DNA from: Thermoplasma volcanium GSS1
GTDB lineage: Archaea; Thermoplasmatota; Thermoplasmata; Thermoplasmatales; Thermoplasmataceae
Reading direction: 5' to 3'
Assembly (NCBI RefSeq): GCF_000011185.1
Contig: NC_002689.2
Location: 1,426,001 to 1,490,000 of the forward strand
Length of the DNA: 64,000 bases
Part shown: piece by piece, positions 16,265-30,690 of the stretch
Layout of the letters: each line of letters begins with the position of its first letter
How positions within the stretch are numbered: position 1 is the stretch's first letter
Notes under the pieces: model-generated
What the model saw: only the letters and a program-made list of their open reading frames with translations
Database searches by the model: none
Told to the model about the DNA's origin: nothing
Position numbers and translations under genes: made by a program

Positions 16265-17659
16265 GGTCGATTTATCGAAGTCCTTAACTATGACTGTTCT
16301 TGAATACAGATCGAAGAGCGTTAATTTGGATGGCTTCGGATTGAAGTTCATCATCTTTTGGTATTCTGTCTGAGATTGCCATGTAGATGAATTTACGTAG
16401 CGTACTCCCTTATAATTGCCTATGTAGTGTGAATGGATATGGCCCGTAATGAAGATGTCAGGAACCTCCTCTATTACGTGGTAGTCCACGCTTGAAGGTA
16501 TAAGTGGCGTATTGCCACCGTATCTTGGGCTCAGGTGTCTCCTAACCAGTATTGCTTCTATAGCCTTGCCAATGCTGTCGTAATTGGCACCAGGTATAAG
16601 CTCTATCATATCGTTTAGCGACATGCCGTGGTAAACGAGTACATTTTTGCCTTCCAGTTTGAGGTTATACGGGTTTGGAAGAAAAACTGCATTCGATGGA
16701 AACATCTTCCTTATCTTCTCAGGGAAAACTGGCTGCGGCTCGGAAAGCCTTACGGTATCATGGTTTCCAGGCATAATGAATACTGTTATGTCCTCAGGTA
16801 TCTGCGATACGAATGATGCCAATGCCTCATATTGATCAAGTGGGTTCAGCAATTCAAGGTCATTTTCTTGGCCGGGATATACGCCTATGCCGTCTACTAC
16901 ATCTCCACTTAGGATCAGATACTTCGTACTTAGTGAAGTATCGTCTGAAGATTCGAACCACTTGATCATATCCTGAAATTCATTCTTCCGGAAAGTCTTA
17001 CTGCCAATATGTATGTCCGATAGGGAGGCCACAAATACTGGTTCATGCTTTGTTTCATCAAGGATTCTATAAGGTATATCCGGCCTTACTATCTCATCAG
17101 CGAAGATCACCGGGTCTTTGGAAGAAGAACTTACATTGCCTATTATTCCTATTACCTCATCTTCAAGGATGACCTCGTTTATTATGCCCCTATCCTTAAG
17201 GATGAAAACCTGTATACTGTCATCTAGATCCTCGATCAATACTCTTTTGTGCCCATTCTTGGTCATAGATACTTCAGATACCATGCCTATGACCTTAACC
17301 TGGCCTTGGCTATGCTTTGCAGTTTTTATGCTGATCGAACCACGCATTGAAGATGAAGCAGATATTATCCTGCTGAGCTTTTCATACTTACTCACGAACA
17401 TTTTCCTGAAGTCCTCGACTGAAGAATTGAAGCGTACTTCAGGCAGGTAAACCTCAAAATCATTCATTTCCCTCTTCGGCTTTAGAGCCGCTTCTACAAT
17501 ACGATCGTCGATATATCCATCGGAGTTCTTAACTAGATCCTCGATCAGCGAGCTTGAAGAGTACTTTATGATCTTCTCAAGTGCAGACGGTGAAACAAGT
17601 ACACCGTTCTTTGTGAAATACTCAAGCAAACTTGCTTTATCGAGGTCCGCCATAATCAA
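16259..17659 (-). CDS. DNA polymerase D small subunit (DP1, exonuclease subunit)
   Basis: DP1 is the 3'-5' proofreading subunit of the euryarchaeal replicative polymerase PolD and partners the large subunit DP2, which is not here. The 466-residue protein has an N-terminal helical region, an OB-fold around 100-200 and a calcineurin-like phosphodiesterase domain. Phosphodiesterase motifs are SDIHIG (near 217), GDVVDG (near 253), PGNHD (near 298), YHGMS and GHIHSH (near 405), so the nuclease site appears intact. Start ATG 17659 or the third codon ATG. Confidence 0.95.
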   Translation of the reverse strand: MIMADLDKASLLEYFTKNGVLVSPSALEKIIKYSSSSLIEDLVKNSDGYIDDRIVEAALKPKREMNDFEVYLPEVRFNSSVEDFRKMFVSKYEKLSRIISASSSMRGSISIKTAKHSQGQVKVIGMVSEVSMTKNGHKRVLIEDLDDSIQVFILKDRGIINEVILEDEVIGIIGNVSSSSKDPVIFADEIVRPDIPYRILDETKHEPVFVASLSDIHIGSKTFRKNEFQDMIKWFESSDDTSLSTKYLILSGDVVDGIGVYPGQENDLELLNPLDQYEALASFVSQIPEDITVFIMPGNHDTVRLSEPQPVFPEKIRKMFPSNAVFLPNPYNLKLEGKNVLVYHGMSLNDMIELIPGANYDSIGKAIEAILVRRHLSPRYGGNTPLIPSSVDYHVIEEVPDIFITGHIHSHYIGNYKGVRYVNSSTWQSQTEYQKMMNFNPKPSKLTLFDLYSRTVIVKDFDKSTS

Positions 17660-17756
17660 GCACCTATCTTTGATAGAAGATGTTGATTAGGTATATTTAC
17701 ATAGTTTTTTTCTTTATCTAACCTCTTATTTATTAGCTAATATTTAATTTGGCCGT

Positions 17757-18614
17757 ATGGATCGGGCCACTGAACCTGTTCTTTTCTTTTTCATGGCGTT
17801 TTTCTGGGCGCTTAACTACGTTATGGTTAAATTCGCATACGCGTACGATCTTTCATCTTCTATCTTGCTGATGCGCGTTTTATACGCATCAATATTCTCT
17901 TCGCTTATCTTCATCCGCCAGATTAAGCTGCCTAAAAGTCCACTCGAACACCTTAAGGTCTTCATATTGGCAAACCTCAACATCACAGGGTTTTTCTCTC
18001 TCTGGTTCTTTGGGGAAACTGGAGTGAGCGCAGCAGTCACGTCCATAGTAATATACTCATATCCTATACTCGCAACAGCATTCTCGTATTTGTTTTTAGG
18101 CGACAGATTCGGTGCTATGAAGACGCTGGGCCTCATACTCGGGTTTGCTGGCCTGGTAATCATTTTTATCAGATCAATCAACGTTGAGAATTTAGTGGAC
18201 CTTATCATGCTCTTAGTAGCAGCGATAAGCTGGGCCATCGGTACGGTATTTTACAGGAAATATTTACTTGGCTATGATTCGGCTGGGCTGAATACCCTGC
18301 AGCTTTTGTATGCTCTCCCAGTCGTACTCTTAATTTCTCTCTTCACAGGCGGGATAAATATAGGACTGCTTCAGCTTAAGTTCAACCTCATAATGATTTA
18401 TATGGGATCATTCGGAACTGCAATTGCTTACTTCATATACCTTTACCTATACAGGAAGTATAAGGTGAGCTCCATATCGGCTTATTTTTTCCTCGTTCCT
18501 GCGATCTCTGTTGTACTGGCCGCTGTACTGCTTAAAGAACCGATCTCTGCTCTTACAATTGCAGGCTTTGCTGTGATGAGCGCAGGCATCTTCCTATCTG
18601 GAAGCTTTAAATGA
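17757..18614 (+). CDS. EamA/DMT-family transporter
   Basis: A 285-residue, ten-helix drug/metabolite transporter with two EamA repeats. The first repeat ends with LGFAGLVIIFI and the second contains FFLVPAISVVLAAVLLKEP, both typical. The substrate is unknown; family members export amino acids, sugars or purines. It is divergent from DP1 and convergent with the ALDH-like gene, whose stop lies two bases away. Confidence 0.88.
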   Translation: MDRATEPVLFFFMAFFWALNYVMVKFAYAYDLSSSILLMRVLYASIFSSLIFIRQIKLPKSPLEHLKVFILANLNITGFFSLWFFGETGVSAAVTSIVIYSYPILATAFSYLFLGDRFGAMKTLGLILGFAGLVIIFIRSINVENLVDLIMLLVAAISWAIGTVFYRKYLLGYDSAGLNTLQLLYALPVVLLISLFTGGINIGLLQLKFNLIMIYMGSFGTAIAYFIYLYLYRKYKVSSISAYFFLVPAISVVLAAVLLKEPISALTIAGFAVMSAGIFLSGSFK

Positions 18615-18616
18615 CA

Positions 18617-19804
18617 CTACATTAAGATCTTTCTCTTCACAAGGAACGGTTTAAACAAATAGTCTTTGTACATGTAGCTATTGAATGATATCTCTTTGCA
18701 TGCTGTCCTGCCGTATAACATTTTGAGTAGCTTAGAATCGTCCGAAAATAGTGCGCACCTATCCGCTTCAACTTCATTTATTAAATTAACGGCGTCCTCA
18801 ACTGATGCTGAATTTACTAGATAAACAAGGGGTGCATGTACAAATGGATCTTTCACAACATCATCTGTAAGAATTATGGCGGGTTTCATTAAATTTCCCT
18901 CAACCCCCCTGAACATAGCCAGCAAACGTTCAACGCGATATTTACCCACTATGCTCAGAGCTTCCATTAGATCCTCGTCTTTTGTTACTGGTCCTAGATC
19001 TGTGGCTCCATCCGCCGGATCACCGACAACGATCCGAGAGAGCTCCTCCTTTAGCCTGTTGAGAACATACTCGAACATCCTCCTGTCAACAACTAGAAGC
19101 TGTTCGTTGCTGAAAGGCATTCGTACGAGTCTCTTTGTAAACTCTGAAACTGCACTGTCTGGATCTATATCCCCCCATAAAACGGTAGCTGGTTTGTGCC
19201 TTTCACTCTGGATTATCCTATTTATCCCAAGCCCATCATAGGTATCTTGAAAATAAGAAAAGTTTTCTCCATATAGGTAAGCATAATTAAAATTAGGCTT
19301 AAATGGAATCACGTTCACTACGCCTTCCGGCAAGCCAATCTCAGATAGCATTGAAATAATTATGTGGGCTGATACGAAGTTATATGGATTTGCAAAAACC
19401 AAAACCGGAGAACCTTGCAGTATAGTGGCGAAGAGAGGAACGAATAGCGATAGAACTGGATCGTTGCAATTATAATTTAATGCGGATACACCAGGTTTGA
19501 CAAATTCATGGAGATCTTCTGGAATTCTTATAGACTTGATCTCCCTTATCGTTTGCAGGATTTCTTCCCTAATGTACTTAAAAGGCTTGCCAGTTTCAGA
19601 GGCTATTTCTATAGATATACGATCAACGTTTCTGTCCAGATAATTGCTGATTCTTTCACGTAGTTCAATGAAGAAGCCCTGATCTTTGCCGTAAAGGAAA
19701 TCGGCCGCGTAAATTGACGATCTGCGCAAGCTTTCTGTTCTACAATTTTCCAAGAAAAAATGAATGATTTCTTGAGTATACCTATTCTTTACTATCACGT
19801 GCAT
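18617..19804 (-). CDS. Degenerate aldehyde-dehydrogenase-superfamily protein lacking the catalytic Cys
   Basis: The 395 residues align with the ALDH fold: SETGKPFKYIREEI near residue 68, GLPEGVVNVIPF near 157, VVGDPADGATDLGPVTK near 268, and DPFVHAPLVYLVNSASVEDAVNLIN near 320. It is about 80 residues shorter than usual. Where active enzymes have the nucleophilic Cys (after an NxGQ-type motif) this protein reads PFSNEQLLVVDR, with no Cys. The catalytic-Glu motif ELGG is replaced by HKPATVLWGD. It is therefore probably not an active dehydrogenase. A regulatory or binding role, or a lineage-specific decaying gene, are both possible; the frame is fully open. Confidence 0.75.
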   Translation of the reverse strand: MHVIVKNRYTQEIIHFFLENCRTESLRRSSIYAADFLYGKDQGFFIELRERISNYLDRNVDRISIEIASETGKPFKYIREEILQTIREIKSIRIPEDLHEFVKPGVSALNYNCNDPVLSLFVPLFATILQGSPVLVFANPYNFVSAHIIISMLSEIGLPEGVVNVIPFKPNFNYAYLYGENFSYFQDTYDGLGINRIIQSERHKPATVLWGDIDPDSAVSEFTKRLVRMPFSNEQLLVVDRRMFEYVLNRLKEELSRIVVGDPADGATDLGPVTKDEDLMEALSIVGKYRVERLLAMFRGVEGNLMKPAIILTDDVVKDPFVHAPLVYLVNSASVEDAVNLINEVEADRCALFSDDSKLLKMLYGRTACKEISFNSYMYKDYLFKPFLVKRKILM

Positions 19805-21365: not shown

Positions 21366-22115
21366 TCAATCGTTTCTTATTCTAGCTTTCCCGTTACTAG
21401 CTGTAATAAGAGATCTGACAAAATTTATAGTCCTCTCAACTTCAATGCCATACTCGTACCTTATAACAGAGTAATAGTCCGATGCTACGCTTAAAGGTAT
21501 GCCGAGGCGCGAGGAAAGTGCCATCGAACATTCATCTTTATACGAATACGATGATAAAATGGCCTCATCGATGGCAGAATAATCGAAAGGCTCCCTGGAA
21601 ACGGTGACGGCGTACACAGGCTCCATTCCATACAGCTTTGAGAACATGTTTCCGACATCGGCTATAAGGGGGTATTTTTTGGAATAAACGCGGAGGGCCT
21701 CGTCCCCATTCAGAAGAGCATAATCTTCAATCGCCAAAAGATCCTCCGCTTCTGTTTTATCCGTCCTCACGAATGTATAGTCTATGCCGAGGCGTTCTAA
21801 TACGAGTGATAGATAGAATTCTGTAGTCCTGGTATTCTTTGTTATTGCTACCCTTATCTTTCTATCCATGCCTGGCTTCCTCGATATAAGAATAGTTGAT
21901 ATCGTCTTGCGGGTGCTATGTATAGTTGCTGTCTTTAGCAGAATAAGATCGTTTGAGTTCTCAAGGTATGATAGAAGGGATACCATCGAAGCATCTACCT
22001 TGCCATCAAGGACAAGCTTCAAATTTTCGAATGGATTATTTCTGAGTACATGTTCCTTATTGCTGAATCCAAGATAAAGCGGATCGCTATGTGAAAAATT
22101 TATTATGGATATCAT
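21366..22115 (-). CDS. mqnA: Chorismate dehydratase of the futalosine pathway
   Basis: MqnA dehydrates chorismate to 3-enolpyruvylbenzoate, the entry step of futalosine-route menaquinone synthesis. The 249-residue protein has the periplasmic-binding-like fold seen in MqnA/MqnD: LDGKVDASMVSLLSYL near residues 37-52, ALLNGDEALR near 139, and a late helical region. The start overlaps the stop of mqnE by four bases, so mqnE-mqnA is one operon. MqnD is a related family; the length, the pairing with mqnE and the overall pattern favour MqnA. Confidence 0.82.
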   Translation of the reverse strand: MISIINFSHSDPLYLGFSNKEHVLRNNPFENLKLVLDGKVDASMVSLLSYLENSNDLILLKTATIHSTRKTISTILISRKPGMDRKIRVAITKNTRTTEFYLSLVLERLGIDYTFVRTDKTEAEDLLAIEDYALLNGDEALRVYSKKYPLIADVGNMFSKLYGMEPVYAVTVSREPFDYSAIDEAILSSYSYKDECSMALSSRLGIPLSVASDYYSVIRYEYGIEVERTINFVRSLITASNGKARIRND

Positions 22116-23209
22116 GCGTATTCTACTATATTATAAAATGTATCTCGGACACCTGGTATCTTTCCAGCTTGCCTGATCATATTATTCAATTCTTCGGTTG
22201 TTGTCGACGTCTTTCTGTCAGTAGCACCAAAAACCTTTTCACTGTACGCTGTCCCAACAAGGTCATTTCCACCTCCGTTTATTGCTATCTGTGCAGTCAG
22301 CTTCCCTATGGCGACCCAGTATACGCTTATGTTCCTTATGGCCCTCCCCATTATTATTCTAGCCAGAGCTATAACCTTAAGGTCTTTGTCAACAGGTGCA
22401 GGGCCATGAACCCTGCCAGAGCGGAGAAGTGCAGTATTTTCAGGACTGAATTTTAATGGTATGAATGAGAGAAAACCTGGAACCTCGATCTGGTTGTCCC
22501 TCAACCTGATCATGTGATCAATTATATGCTCCCACCCCTCAATGTGACCATAGGTCATGGTCGAGTTGCCTTTTAGGCCGAGGGAGTGTATTATTTTGGC
22601 ATCTTCTAACCATTTCTCTCCCGATACCTTCTCTGGTGTGGTTATGTATTTCCGTATTTCCTGATCAAATATTTCGGCGCCTCCTCCAGTGTGTGCATTC
22701 ATTCCAGCGTCCATAAACCTCAAGACGGTCTCCTTTATGCTGTTGCCAGTCGTCCTTGCAATGAAGTCTATCTCTGGTATTGTAAAAGCTTTAATGGCAA
22801 CGTTTGGCATAATTCCCCTTATTGTCCTAAAAATATCTTCGTAGTACTCTATGCTAAGGTCAGGATCAAAACCTCCGACTATGTGTATCTCCGTAGCTCC
22901 TTTTTGCTTCGCTATAAGAGCTTCTTTTCTTACCTGTTCTTTGGTTAGTTCGTAGCCTTTGCCGAATCTTTTGTTTTTGTACGGGACATAAAATGCGCAT
23001 ATGGGACAGCTTGCTGTGCAGTAATTTGTGTAGTTTATATTGTAAGAAATAGCATACGAAACGGTTTCACCTGCATCATAATGCGTTAACCTGTCGGCAA
23101 GTTTCATAAGATCGTATAGATCCATATTAAGGAGATCTATTGAATCGGAGTATTCCAGTGGTGATTCTATGGCTCTTTCATACCAATAATCCACATCATA
23201 GCTTAGCAT
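22112..23209 (-). CDS. mqnE: Radical SAM aminofutalosine synthase
   Basis: MqnE joins 3-enolpyruvylbenzoate to SAM-derived adenosine to give 6-amino-6-deoxyfutalosine. The 365-residue protein has the family opening NINYTNYC and the radical SAM cluster motif CTASCPICAF (about residues 62-71, CX3CX2C). It continues with IHIVGGFDPDLSIEYYED, GGGAEIFD and the C-terminal SPENTALL region. It differs from MqnC in the ISVYWVAIGKLTAQIA segment. First gene of the mqnE-mqnA operon, divergent from the B12-radical SAM gene. Confidence 0.88.
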   Translation of the reverse strand: MLSYDVDYWYERAIESPLEYSDSIDLLNMDLYDLMKLADRLTHYDAGETVSYAISYNINYTNYCTASCPICAFYVPYKNKRFGKGYELTKEQVRKEALIAKQKGATEIHIVGGFDPDLSIEYYEDIFRTIRGIMPNVAIKAFTIPEIDFIARTTGNSIKETVLRFMDAGMNAHTGGGAEIFDQEIRKYITTPEKVSGEKWLEDAKIIHSLGLKGNSTMTYGHIEGWEHIIDHMIRLRDNQIEVPGFLSFIPLKFSPENTALLRSGRVHGPAPVDKDLKVIALARIIMGRAIRNISVYWVAIGKLTAQIAINGGGNDLVGTAYSEKVFGATDRKTSTTTEELNNMIRQAGKIPGVRDTFYNIVEYA

Positions 23210-23419
23210 TTTACAATCATTATTATTAAGTATATAAAGTTGGAGCAGGTAACGGTTGAAATTACTAGGTTACCAGTAAACTGAACTTTCTCATGCACTA
23301 TTTAATAAAGTATCATTATGATTGAAAAATAAGAATGCAGATACTACGGCATCTCTGCGTATTTAAAAAATGTTCAGCCAAGGAAAATAATAGTTAAAAT
23401 ATCAAGGAAGAATCATGAA

Positions 23420-25111
23420 GTGTTATATATGGATGCAGATGTTGTTTTTGTTCATCCGCCTTCAATTTATGATTTTAGGAAGAGGGATATCGACCCAGGG
23501 CCAATAAGCGACGTTGTTCCCTCTACACCTGTCTTTGAGATGTATCCCGTCGGATTCATAAGCATGCTGAATTTTCTAGTACAGAACGGCTTCAATGCAA
23601 GGATAGCAAATGTAGCTGTAAGGATGGTGGAATCAAAGAAATTCAACGTAGAAAAATACCTGTCGGAAATAGAAGCACCTATATTTGGTATAGACCTGCA
23701 CTGGCTTCCCCATGCACATGGGGCACTAAACCTTGCCAGGATTATAAAGAATATACACCCTGAATCTTACGTAGTGTTTGGTGGTTACTCTTCTACTTAC
23801 TTCAGGTATGAACTTATGAAGAACTACGATTTCATAGATTTCGTACTGGCAGGCGATTTCCAGGAATATGGCATATACAAGCTTGCAGAAGCTTTAGAAG
23901 AAGGTGCTTCGTATTCCGAAGTCCCAGGCCTTGTGTACAGGGAGAACGGTAGGATTAAGGAAAACCAGAGGTACGATTTTCGTAAGGGCCTAGACAACGT
24001 GTTCTTGAACTACGAGGTGCTGCTTAAAAATGCCATTAAGTACCATGACGTGAAAGGGCATCTTCCATACGCAGACTGGCTCAGAAACCCAGAGGGTTTT
24101 ACGATGATAGAAAGGGGTTGCCAGTTAAACTGCGGTTTCTGCGGAGGATCGAACTTTGCTTACAAGTCTAATTTTGCAATGAACTATCAGTTCAGAGACC
24201 CGTGCAGGATCGCCGAAGAGATCGAGATGTCCCAAGATATCCTCGGTTCACCTGTTTTCATAGCTGGTGATATTGCGCTGGCGGGGCCCCATTACTATGA
24301 GAGGCTTTTCAAATGCTTAAATGAAAGGCGTATAGACATACCTCTGTTAACAGAATATTTCAAACCGTTCAACGAAGATTACGTAAAGTCTCTAAGCAAG
24401 ACGGTTGAGGACTTTTCCATGGAGATATCGCCGGAGACATACGATGAAAATGTGAGAAGCTGGAACAAGAGCGGCTACTCGAATAAGGATATGGAGAGAA
24501 GCTTTTCGCTTGCTGAAAAATACGGATCCAAGAAATTCGACGTCTATTTTTCAATAGGCCTATCCCATCAAAACAAAAAGAACGTTATGGACACCGTGGA
24601 GTATGCAGGAAATATAATGAAAGGTTACATGCGTAGCAGCATGCGCATGAGCACCTTCATATCACCTATAGCACCCTTTGTAGATCCAGGATCGCTATGG
24701 TACGAAAAGCCTGATCTATATGGCTTTAAGATATACGGTAGAAGCGTATCTGATGTATACAGAATCCTTGACCTCGGAAGAACTTGGTACGATTTCCTGG
24801 ATTATGAGACGAACTGGATGACAAAGGATGACATAGTCAATTCGACGTACGATGCAGAGATTAGAATGACGCAGTTACGATATGAAGTTGGCGAAATTAC
24901 CGAGGAAGCAAGGGACACAATAATCAGGAATGTAATGAACTATAGAGAGGGAAACAACTACTGCAGGAACGATAGGATGGATAAGCACCTAGCGTACATG
25001 AGCAAAGACATAGAGTGGTCCCACAGGCACAAGCCTACGTTAACGTCTTTGCTTATCCTACTCTATAGATCCTATGATTCTGTCATAGGCGGGATGAGTA
25101 TAAGGAATTAG
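23420..25111 (+). CDS. B12-binding domain radical SAM protein (Ta0216-like family)
   Basis: A 563-residue protein with an N-terminal cobalamin-binding Rossmann-like domain (about residues 5-160; YVVFGGYSSTY is the usual late glycine motif) and a radical SAM domain. Its cluster motif is CQLNCGFCGG near residues 233-242 (CX3CX2C). This matches a family I remember as first defined in Thermoplasma acidophilum. Members of class B radical SAM enzymes are often methylases. It lies between the divergent mqnEA operon and mqnC, strongly suggesting a job on menaquinone; the extra ring methylation of thermoplasmaquinone is the obvious candidate. Start GTG 23420 or ATG 23429. Confidence 0.82.
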   Translation: MLYMDADVVFVHPPSIYDFRKRDIDPGPISDVVPSTPVFEMYPVGFISMLNFLVQNGFNARIANVAVRMVESKKFNVEKYLSEIEAPIFGIDLHWLPHAHGALNLARIIKNIHPESYVVFGGYSSTYFRYELMKNYDFIDFVLAGDFQEYGIYKLAEALEEGASYSEVPGLVYRENGRIKENQRYDFRKGLDNVFLNYEVLLKNAIKYHDVKGHLPYADWLRNPEGFTMIERGCQLNCGFCGGSNFAYKSNFAMNYQFRDPCRIAEEIEMSQDILGSPVFIAGDIALAGPHYYERLFKCLNERRIDIPLLTEYFKPFNEDYVKSLSKTVEDFSMEISPETYDENVRSWNKSGYSNKDMERSFSLAEKYGSKKFDVYFSIGLSHQNKKNVMDTVEYAGNIMKGYMRSSMRMSTFISPIAPFVDPGSLWYEKPDLYGFKIYGRSVSDVYRILDLGRTWYDFLDYETNWMTKDDIVNSTYDAEIRMTQLRYEVGEITEEARDTIIRNVMNYREGNNYCRNDRMDKHLAYMSKDIEWSHRHKPTLTSLLILLYRSYDSVIGGMSIRN

Positions 25112-25145
25112 CAATGGTTAATAAGGAAATGAAGATGGTGGGTAC

Positions 25146-26246
25146 GTGATAAAAACCGGGGAACTTAAGTATATTGAAGAAAAAATAGAGAGAAGAGAGG
25201 ATCTTGACGAGGATGACATCGTTTACATGTACGATGAGGCTGATGTAAATGATCTCGGGAAGCTGGCAAGGAGCATTACCGATAAGATCAGTGGGAAGAG
25301 GGTTTCCTTCGTCTCAAATATCATACTAAATTACACAAACATATGCAATGTCCGCTGCAAGTTCTGTGCGTTTTACAGGAAGAGCGGCGAATATGATGCT
25401 TATACGATGACGCCGGACGGTGTAATTGACGAGATAAGGAAGTATTATCCCTACGGAATAAGGCAGATACTCATACAGGGTGGCGTGAACCCAAACCTCG
25501 ACTTAGATTATTATCTAACGGTTTTCAGGAAAATAAGGGAAAATTTTACTGAAGCTGGCATCAACGGCCTTTCTGCTGCAGAAATAAACTTCATATCAAA
25601 GAAAGCGCATTTGACCTATGAGGAAACGATATTAAAGCTCAAGGAAGCCGGCCTCGAAACTATACCTGGGGCGGGAGCCGAAATACTAGACGAAGATGTT
25701 AGAGTTAAGCTTGGGAGGCCTCGTGGCAGCGGTAGGCAATGGCTGGAGATTATGGAGACTGCACACAGGCTAGGCGTGAAAACGACCGCAACCATGGTAT
25801 ATGGACATATAGAAAGCAGCATGGACAAGGCAAGGCACCTTATATCGATAAGAAACCTGCAAAAGAAATACCACGGCTTTTTATCCTTTACACCGTGGAA
25901 TATGGAACCTGATAATACCGAGCTGCAGAAAGAGGGTATACTAAAATACAGGGCAGGTGCAGAGGATGTGATAAGGAACATAGCTATATCAAGGATAGTC
26001 TTCAATTACGATCTTCCAATAATCCAAAGCTCATGGCTAACGAACGGTGTAGAAATGGGCCAGCTTGCCATACTTTATGGAGCAAACGACTGGGGAGGCA
26101 CCATATACGATGAGAAAGTTATACCAGCTACTGGAAAGCGAGTCGGGAACCTAAGGAAGGAGATCATAATTAGGAGCATAAAGGACCTCGGCATGGTACC
26201 AGTAGAGAGGGACAACCTTTACAGAGAAATTGCTGTATATGAATAA
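25146..26246 (+). CDS. mqnC: Cyclic dehypoxanthinylfutalosine synthase
   Basis: MqnC is the radical SAM enzyme that closes the second ring from dehypoxanthinylfutalosine. The 366-residue sequence has NYTNICNVRCKFCAFYR with the CX3CX2C cluster near residues 64-71, ILIQGGVNPNLDLDYY, GAGAEILDEDVR, TTATMVYGHIES and the MqnC-type IIQSSWLTNGVEMGQLAI and YGANDWGGTIYDE segments. Start is GTG 25146, 34 bases after the B12-radical SAM stop, so both are likely one transcript. The downstream truD start overlaps its end. Confidence 0.9.
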   Translation: MIKTGELKYIEEKIERREDLDEDDIVYMYDEADVNDLGKLARSITDKISGKRVSFVSNIILNYTNICNVRCKFCAFYRKSGEYDAYTMTPDGVIDEIRKYYPYGIRQILIQGGVNPNLDLDYYLTVFRKIRENFTEAGINGLSAAEINFISKKAHLTYEETILKLKEAGLETIPGAGAEILDEDVRVKLGRPRGSGRQWLEIMETAHRLGVKTTATMVYGHIESSMDKARHLISIRNLQKKYHGFLSFTPWNMEPDNTELQKEGILKYRAGAEDVIRNIAISRIVFNYDLPIIQSSWLTNGVEMGQLAILYGANDWGGTIYDEKVIPATGKRVGNLRKEIIIRSIKDLGMVPVERDNLYREIAVYE

Positions 26247-28961: not shown

Positions 28962-29843
28962 TTATTTTTTGAGCTCCTCGACTATTTTCGGGACTATTGC
29001 GAATATGTCTCCGACTATTCCATAATCGCACTCCTGGAAAATCGGTGCGTTCTTATCTTTGTTAATTGCAATAACAGTCTTAGAGTTCCTCATACCGGCA
29101 ATGTGCTGTATTTGTCCAGATATGCCTAGTGCGATGTACAGTTTGGGAGAAACCTTCTTCCCAGATAGCCCTACCTGCCTGTCTTCACTTAACCAGCCGT
29201 AATCCATGCAGACCGGACGGGATCCGGCGAGCTCGCCTTTAACGGCATTTACCAAAGGCTCTATCTTTGATATATTCTCCTTGCTGCCTATGCCCCTGCC
29301 GACCGATACAATTATTTTTGCGTCTTCTAGCCGCACGCCTCCTGCATTCTTCGGAACTACTTTGTTGACTCGTACTTTGCTTGGTTTTATAGGCAGATCC
29401 TTTTCCTCAGGCTTGCTTTCAAATTCCTTGGCCTCTATTACTCCAGGGGCAACAGTAAATACCTTTGCATCGCTTTCTTCTTCTATAACTGTCTTTCCAC
29501 CGTAGAAGAACCTCTTTGTCTTTGCTTTCCCATTAGAAAATTCCAGCGAGAATATTTCAGTAGCTGCGTAATAACCAGTTTTGCCGGCTATATAACCAGC
29601 AACTTCTCTGCCAAATTCCGTTGATCCTGCTACAATGATATCGTAGTTTCCCATGATCTCTAGTATTCCATCAGCTACCGCATCATAAGGAGTGCCTTTC
29701 TTTACAGTATATAGGGTTGATGCACCTACTCCGCTAACTCTTCCTTCACCAACGTAAACTGCATCATATTCTGCCTTGCCGTTGACAAGCGTGCAGGCCT
29801 GCTTCAGGAAATTAATATCGTCTGATACTACGAGTGCCTTCAT
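28962..29843 (-). CDS. etfA: Electron transfer flavoprotein alpha subunit
   Basis: EtfA (FixB type) carries the redox-active FAD of the heterodimer that collects electrons from acyl-CoA and other dehydrogenases. The 293-residue protein has the C-terminal FAD-binding signature region around SVGRGIGSKENI, PVCMDYGWLSEDRQVGLSGKKVSP (split over about residues 200-235), YIALGISGQIQHIAGM and VIAINKDKNAPIF. The start overlaps the etfB stop by four bases, so etfBA is one operon. Confidence 0.93.
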   Translation of the reverse strand: MKALVVSDDINFLKQACTLVNGKAEYDAVYVGEGRVSGVGASTLYTVKKGTPYDAVADGILEIMGNYDIIVAGSTEFGREVAGYIAGKTGYYAATEIFSLEFSNGKAKTKRFFYGGKTVIEEESDAKVFTVAPGVIEAKEFESKPEEKDLPIKPSKVRVNKVVPKNAGGVRLEDAKIIVSVGRGIGSKENISKIEPLVNAVKGELAGSRPVCMDYGWLSEDRQVGLSGKKVSPKLYIALGISGQIQHIAGMRNSKTVIAINKDKNAPIFQECDYGIVGDIFAIVPKIVEELKK

Positions 29844-30577
29844 CTCATCTCCTCCTTTATCACCTTGACTATCTCGGGTATGCCCTCATCAACTTTTTCG
29901 AAGATCTTTTTCTTCCTTTCGCTCTTAGGCGCAAGGTTCGAGATAACGTTTACATTTGAGAACGAACCATCATACTTCTCCATCCTTATAGGCTTACGGC
30001 CTGCAGCCATTATCTGGAGGACAGGCGGAAGCCTGGGCTGGTTTATTTCTTGAGTCACCGATACTATAGCAGGCATATCCGCCTCTATCTCTGCGTTTTC
30101 GGCCTCGCCGACCTGTGTTATCCTCACGCTCCTGCCGTTTATCGTTATAGAGTTAGCGTTACCTAGGAGCGGAAAACCGGTCATTGCCGAAAGGAGGCCA
30201 GGCAGCATTCCTGTATATGAGTCAGCTGACTGATCTCCGAGTACGACAATGTCATACTGCAAATTCTTTAATATACTAGTTATAGCCTTAGCCGTTACTA
30301 TTGGGTTGCTTCCTTTGTATCCAGTTATTATTATACCTTCGTCTACCCCCATAGCATATGCCTCTTTCATGGCAGCTGTAGACGCCTCTGTCCCAAAAAT
30401 TATGCCCGTTACTTTGCCCCCATTCTTTTCCTTTAGCTGAACAGCTGCTTCTATGGCGTTTTTGCTTAGGTTCTCAACTCTATAAGGAATGCCTGAAAGA
30501 ATTGGTTTTCCTTCGCTGTCAGTTTTCATCTGGTCTATGTCTATTATCTGTTTTATGAGAACTATTACGTTAACCAT
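29840..30577 (-). CDS. etfB: Electron transfer flavoprotein beta subunit
   Basis: EtfB (FixA type), 245 residues from the ATG at 30577. The start MVNVIVLIKQIID matches the family N-terminus, so the 15 upstream residues of the longer frame are not used. A TATA-like TGTATATAC lies about 26 bases before this ATG, the spacing of a leaderless archaeal promoter. Later motifs are VLGDQSADSYTGMLPGLL and PAIVSVTQEINQPRLPP. Works with EtfA; see the HdrD-like membrane protein at 41.2-43.2 kb as a possible quinone-side partner. Confidence 0.93.
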   Translation of the reverse strand: MVNVIVLIKQIIDIDQMKTDSEGKPILSGIPYRVENLSKNAIEAAVQLKEKNGGKVTGIIFGTEASTAAMKEAYAMGVDEGIIITGYKGSNPIVTAKAITSILKNLQYDIVVLGDQSADSYTGMLPGLLSAMTGFPLLGNANSITINGRSVRITQVGEAENAEIEADMPAIVSVTQEINQPRLPPVLQIMAAGRKPIRMEKYDGSFSNVNVISNLAPKSERKKKIFEKVDEGIPEIVKVIKEEMR

Positions 30578-30690
30578 TATTCCAGTATTCGTTGAAAGTG
30601 TATATACATTTCTTAGCCGCATACTCTAATTTTTCTATTATTTAGTGGGCAAAAGTGAAAATATAGCATTATAAACTTATATAAATGAAG

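Follow-up and report, generated by a model that had tools for sequence, protein, structure and literature searches.

Between two divergent groups of mqn genes, the chromosome of Thermoplasma volcanium GSS1 carries a gene for a cobalamin-binding radical SAM protein, and this raises the question of what such an enzyme acts on and whether its role is tied to the futalosine pathway of its neighbours. In the initial annotation it was proposed to be the enzyme that adds the extra ring methyl of thermoplasmaquinone (TPQ), either to the naphthoquinone ring or to a futalosine-derived precursor. The locus is described within a window, meaning the whole stretch of DNA analysed, 64,000 nucleotides in length.

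The radical SAM gene and its protein

The arrangement originally described was confirmed: the gene stands 34 bases before mqnC and diverges from mqnE-mqnA (Table 1), with the qualification that the name mqnE is given by elimination, because the open reading frame concerned falls short of both the MqnC cut-off (at 330 bits) and the MqnE cut-off (at 313 bits). The radical SAM gene and mqnC are a probable operon. An MqnD-type PF02621 protein is encoded away from the window (G000:294875, 238 bits), and the electron transfer flavoprotein genes etfB-etfA are found near the mqn region, at window positions 28962-30622.

Table 1. Features of the T. volcanium window and of related loci in other genomes
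Feature	Position	Strand	Evidence
mqnA-type protein (PF02621)	21366..22115	-	79.6 bits
CofH/MqnE/MqnC-type radical SAM protein, mqnE by elimination	22112..23209	-	profile scores
Divergent intergenic region, 210 bases, mqnE-mqnA / radical SAM gene	23210..23419	.	ORF coordinates
TIGR04190 (Ta0216 family) cobalamin-binding radical SAM protein, 563 aa	23420..25111	+	profile searches, AlphaFold2 model
B12-binding domain, residues 36-146	23525..23857	+	PF02310, 33.1 bits (cut-off 32.1)
DLHWLPHAHG, residues 92-101, after strand 3 of the B12 domain	23693..23722	+	alignment A1
CxxxCxxC radical SAM cluster motif, C234, C238, C241	24119..24142	+	invariant in 21 members
Gap of 34 bases, radical SAM gene to mqnC	25112..25145	+	ORF coordinates
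mqnC, cyclic dehypoxanthinyl futalosine synthase	25146..26246	+	TIGR03699, 452 bits (cut-off 428)
MenA and MenG/UbiE homologue pairs of f8, genomes without mqn, MenB, MenD	L137:9155-10829; L139:9565-11239		
DUF981 examples	L061:8159-8755; L091:9186-9758; L059:10141-10719; others		

The protein matches TIGR04190 (B12_SAM_Ta0216), an NCBIfam equivalog without assigned function, over its full length (875.7 bits against a cut-off of 500; profile positions 1-553 of 554) and has the same B12-radical SAM architecture as the family, with no difference seen; judging by where its relatives begin, translation probably starts from the ATG of position 23429 (residue 4). In an alignment of 21 diverse members (A1), residues P34, S35, F39, E40, M41, Y42 and P43 are invariant, as are H94, W95, P97, H98 and G101 of the DLHWxPHxxG motif, the histidines of which could lie near the cobalamin. 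When the AlphaFold2 model of the TIGR04190 protein (mean pLDDT 85.9, pTM 0.88) was compared with solved folds by Foldseek, the best matches were TsrM, MgmA, TokK, CysS, AprD4 and OxsB, all of them cobalamin-type or class B-like radical SAM enzymes; a PDB sequence search with the same protein returned no relative. The B12 domain just over its cut-off, the PF04055 (Radical_SAM) match in the Pfam profile search, the invariant cysteines and the Foldseek matches together assign the protein to class B of the cobalamin-dependent radical SAM enzymes, a fold which also includes non-methylases (AprD4, OxsB). Many members end in an amphipathic C-terminal helix with a hydrophobic moment of 0.4-0.7, a weak hint that is compatible with membrane association.

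With the class B C-methylases TsrM, TokK, CysS and MgmA, whose substrates are tryptophan, carbapenams, an aromatic ester and a protein glutamine, the protein has in common the overall fold (Foldseek E 2e-17 to 1e-12), the CxxxCxxC motif and the B12 domain, but just 10-15% identity. The reaction proposed below, C-methylation of a naphthoquinone ring, is like that of MqnK, MenK and MenK2, which are, however, class C, HemN-like methyltransferases giving 8- or 7-methylmenaquinone, whereas the TIGR04190 protein has a cobalamin domain and the class B fold; profile searches found HemN_C neither in this protein nor in the whole T. volcanium genome, and hence no protein of the MqnK/MenK type. UbiE/MenG, the SAM-dependent quinone C-methylase, serves the same pool and has homologues near the TIGR04190 gene or elsewhere in those genomes, but its fold is unrelated and its target is the quinone ring carbon adjoining the prenyl chain. 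The lipid-modifying B12-radical SAM enzymes GrsA/GrsB and HpnP/HpnR belong to the same superfamily class and have membrane substrates; the sequence similarity to HpnR is weak (47 bits against a cut-off of 650). A literature search for Ta0216 found nothing, and no earlier functional claim was present among the titles and passages matched for thermoplasmaquinone, methylmenaquinone enzymes or radical SAM proteins with Fpo.

Distribution and genomic context of the family

TIGR04190 was detected above its cut-off in 76 of 200 Thermoplasmata genomes. PF02621 (MqnA/MqnD) is present in 23 of these carriers, including two (G110 and G148) with a single PF02621 protein of a different score class, and absent from the other 53. 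A scan of species genomes revealed further members in Methanomassiliicoccales, Hydrothermarchaeota, Hecatellales, Chloroflexota, Zixibacteria, Thermodesulfobacteriota and others, and six of the 20 whole genomes reached through such members have PF02621 (Ferroplasma, two of Hydrothermarchaeota type, two bearing a proteobacterial label and one with a weak partial match). The Chloroflexota genome G201 carries a near-certain MenB (340 bits, close to the cut-off of 342.7), and no MenD or MenB over the cut-off was found in 24 Thermoplasmata genomes, namely T. volcanium plus 23 others, carriers or split-gene carriers, selected for the absence of mqn. As the family is thus present with mqn, with a near-cut-off MenB, or with neither, it is not tied to one head-group pathway, and this indifference to the source of the head group is what would be expected of a tailoring step.

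The link with mqn is confined to Thermoplasma. In all five genomes sampled from this genus PF02621 and TIGR04190 lie ~1.3 kb apart, and the mqn-adjacent members form one clade of the family tree; such adjacency was seen in no carrier checked outside the genus, and according to their coordinates the two genes are far apart or on separate contigs in the other Thermoplasmataceae carriers with PF02621. Within genus g11, two genomes that are 97-99% complete (G166 and G182) have both MqnA and MqnD without TIGR04190, which is present in their congener G220, so these strains offer natural knock-outs for a comparison of quinones. An enzyme specific to the futalosine pathway and acting on an mqn precursor is suggested by the position of the gene, on the same strand and 34 bases before mqnC, as kept across Thermoplasma, but the restriction of this linkage to one genus, the mqn-bearing genomes without the family (G166, G182 and G137) and above all the 53 carriers without MqnA/MqnD largely refute it, and we regard it as highly improbable. 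The co-occurrence with mqn genes anticipated in the initial annotation therefore fails, and the observation that was there named as speaking against its proposal, the family in species without menaquinone, has been made as far as the futalosine pathway is concerned.

The link with complex I is stronger and older. Of the 76 carriers, 74 have NuoA and the remaining two are genomes that are 77-78% complete; nuoA lies within 20 kb of TIGR04190 in 53 carriers against about 1.7 expected, although these 53 genomes are not independent because related genomes share ancestry. Broken down by group (lineage names of f-groups being inferred from relatives in the tree), this proximity is found in 21/22 genomes of f8, 16/16 of f5, 3/3 of f29, 2/2 of f20, 5/6 of f21 and 6/23 of Thermoplasmataceae, the last alone giving P of about 1e-5 if genomes are assumed to be independent. 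The nuo contexts are spread over several separate clades of the family tree, including Chloroflexota, where in one locus (L121) the gene separates nuoC from nuoD within the nuo operon. On the other hand, 72 of the 146 Thermoplasmata genomes with NuoA lack TIGR04190, and the gene is therefore not required by complex I.

Genes for quinone assembly form the third element of these neighbourhoods. The gene order in f21 is nuoL-M-N, polyprenyl synthase, geranylgeranyl reductase (GGR) and TIGR04190, and in f5 TIGR04190 is located at the nuoA end of the nuo operon (nuoA-N), with a MenA-like prenyltransferase, a polyprenyl synthase, a UbiE-like methylase and GGR past nuoN. TIGR04190 is adjoined in Zixibacteria by a UbiA-family protein passing the MenA cut-off (TIGR00751), in Hecatellales by a MenA-like gene, plus a NuoL, and in the I-plasma clade by MenA-like and UbiE-like genes. 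The Methanomethylophilaceae-like f8 has its MenA (122 bits in L137 and 88 bits in L139, cut-off 102) and UbiE/MenG homologues (214 and 196 bits, cut-off 158) adjacent to each other and away from nuo. These complex I, MenA/UbiE-like, polyprenyl synthase and GGR neighbours in unrelated lineages support the role in respiratory quinone metabolism that had been suggested for the gene.

Several other features of these genomes were recorded. UbiA prenyltransferases with an extra N-terminal region of ~140 aa that has no Pfam match (L149:9232-10542, L109:6132-7421) occur, and in genomes without typical mqnA/mqnD (L146, L148, L149) the extended UbiA forms a divergent pair with another UbiA. Groups f11, f16, f19, f22, f24, f25 and f27 combine a MenA-like prenyltransferase and NuoA without TIGR04190 or MqnA/MqnD; they add to the archaea whose quinone-type gene set is unexplained. 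A membrane protein of ~190 aa, DUF981 (PF06168), is a frequent and often direct neighbour of TIGR04190 in Thermoplasmataceae outside Thermoplasma and a possible partner of it, and c207/c208, frequent nuoA neighbours in Thermoplasmataceae, resemble GatE/GatD by eye. Genome G122 has two diverged TIGR04190 copies 12 kb apart (L038:2777-4627 and 17109-18875), one of them just after the nuo operon. The Thermodesulfobacteriota contexts (dnaN/gyrB/rho/selA) look like housekeeping and are uninformative.

Proposed substrate and reaction of the enzyme

From the domains and cluster motif of the protein, its class B fold, the spread of the family and its genomic links we infer a substrate, a methyl transfer and a redox rationale. 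Our best, still tentative, explanation is that TIGR04190 proteins are class B radical SAM enzymes which tailor the pool of a complex-I-linked isoprenoid naphthoquinone (or close analogue), most likely by C-methylation of the ring. The enzyme would act on a naphthoquinone or close analogue reduced by complex I and would accept head groups derived from mqn, men or another route; most likely, methylcobalamin and SAM bound at a [4Fe-4S] cluster would be used for hydrogen abstraction and then for placing a methyl onto an unreactive carbon of the quinone ring, a change that would bring down the redox potential to the benefit of anaerobic respiration. Thermoplasmaquinone would be the result in Thermoplasma, where the family member is plausibly the ring C-methylase responsible for it. 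Tailoring of the pool is favoured because the enzyme travels with complex I and with prenyltransferase and methylase genes while being indifferent to the head-group route. Ring methylation appears the likeliest form of it because most characterised class B radical SAM enzymes are methylases, because the ring-methylated menaquinone (MK) of Thermoplasma is formed chiefly in the absence of oxygen and because HemN-type methylases are missing from T. volcanium; methylmenaquinones have a lower redox potential and would suit anaerobic chains. Of the original proposal, the direction towards quinone tailoring is thus supported and widened beyond Thermoplasma, while its specificity for mqn is rejected.

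Reported quinones bear on this proposal in both directions. The family is present in all five Thermoplasma genomes, and according to a passage of PMC10821996 (citing Shimada 2001) TPQ-7 constitutes 97% of the quinones in anaerobic T. acidophilum, a rise under anaerobiosis that fits an oxygen-sensitive enzyme. The main evidence against ring methylation comes from G067, taken as C. divulgatum S5, which carries both TIGR04190 and mqn and for which the passage of PMC11349054 gives MK-7:7 as the main quinone, a finding that the oxygen status of the culture and minor quinones may qualify; for Oxyplasma meridianum the same passage reports only MK. TIGR04190 is missing from many Thermoplasmata that have nuoA and MenA/UbiE-like genes and is therefore dispensable for making a quinone. 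T. volcanium also has another class B protein, the BchE/HpnR-like one of L151, which could equally be the TPQ methylase.

The same neighbourhoods may be read in other ways. That nuo is the most widespread context, reaching into the operon itself in L121, that NuoA accompanies 74 of 76 carriers and that the protein methylase MgmA ranks among the closest folds could mean that complex I itself is modified, by C-methylation of a residue of a Nuo/Fpo subunit, much as Mmp10 and MgmA modify methyl-coenzyme M reductase; this is unlikely, given the MenA/UbiE-like contexts without nuo within 10 kb in Zixibacteria and I-plasma relatives, the mqn context in Thermoplasma, and the lack of the family over the cut-off in NuoA control genomes as well as in the 72 NuoA genomes of the class mentioned above. 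Modification of the isoprenoid chain or of a membrane lipid, in the manner of GrsA/GrsB or the hopanoid methylases, would reduce the quinone links to a shared isoprenoid supply, and is consistent with the cis-prenyltransferase, polyprenyl synthase and GGR neighbours, with amino-acid-kinase, FMN-dehydrogenase and GHMP-kinase neighbours possibly representing IPK, IDI-2 and mevalonate kinase, with HpnR as the best-scoring named family, though weak, and with the C-terminal helix, for which a passage of PMC11186832 offers a parallel in the idea of a GrsA membrane anchor. We nevertheless find it improbable: in bacteria, from which archaeal tetraether lipids would be expected to be absent, members belong to nuo operons or adjoin MenA, and tetraether modification (butanetriol lipids, Grs rings) is given less weight for the same reason.

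A role in making rather than tailoring the carrier was also weighed. Where mqn and men are lacking, TIGR04190 might catalyse the committed step of an undescribed route to a naphthoquinone-like head group; organisms with mqn might then use it to make a second carrier. Both f8 and f29 (Methanomassiliicoccales type) have MenG/UbiE over the cut-off, f8 also with MenA homologues, while they lack PF02621 and have no MenB or MenD over the cut-off. For Methanomassiliicoccales, passages of Borrel et al. 2014 (PMC4153887) list ispA, ubiA and ubiE and draw an uncharacterised lipid-soluble carrier, X; according to a text search, that paper mentions neither a radical SAM nor a B12 protein, a passage of a later review (PMC7374477) assumes direct, carrier-free contact between Fpo and HdrD, and the passages of the literature searched name no known membrane carrier in this order. 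The family is nevertheless found alongside mqn as well (in Thermoplasma, Ferroplasma and Hydrothermarchaeota) and alongside the near-certain MenB of Chloroflexota G201, and there are Thermoplasmata with MenA-like genes but with neither MqnA/MqnD nor TIGR04190, which makes such a committed step unlikely.

Implications for anaerobic respiration and methanogens

Quinone tailoring by TIGR04190 can be extended to the conjecture, unlikely as it stands, that Methanomassiliicoccales and related anaerobes use a low-potential, B12-dependently modified naphthoquinone-like carrier made without men or mqn, with TIGR04190, which also makes thermoplasmaquinone, as the signature linking it to Fpo/complex I. 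An NCBI family so far unnamed gains a testable role. If the role is borne out, quinone-ring methylation would have evolved with a class B cobalamin enzyme besides the class C MenK/MqnK, thermoplasmaquinone would get its enzyme, and the lipid-soluble carrier X of gut and rumen Methanomassiliicoccales would gain a marker gene next to Fpo, which bears on energy conservation in methanogens and on their need for B12 beyond methyl transfer.
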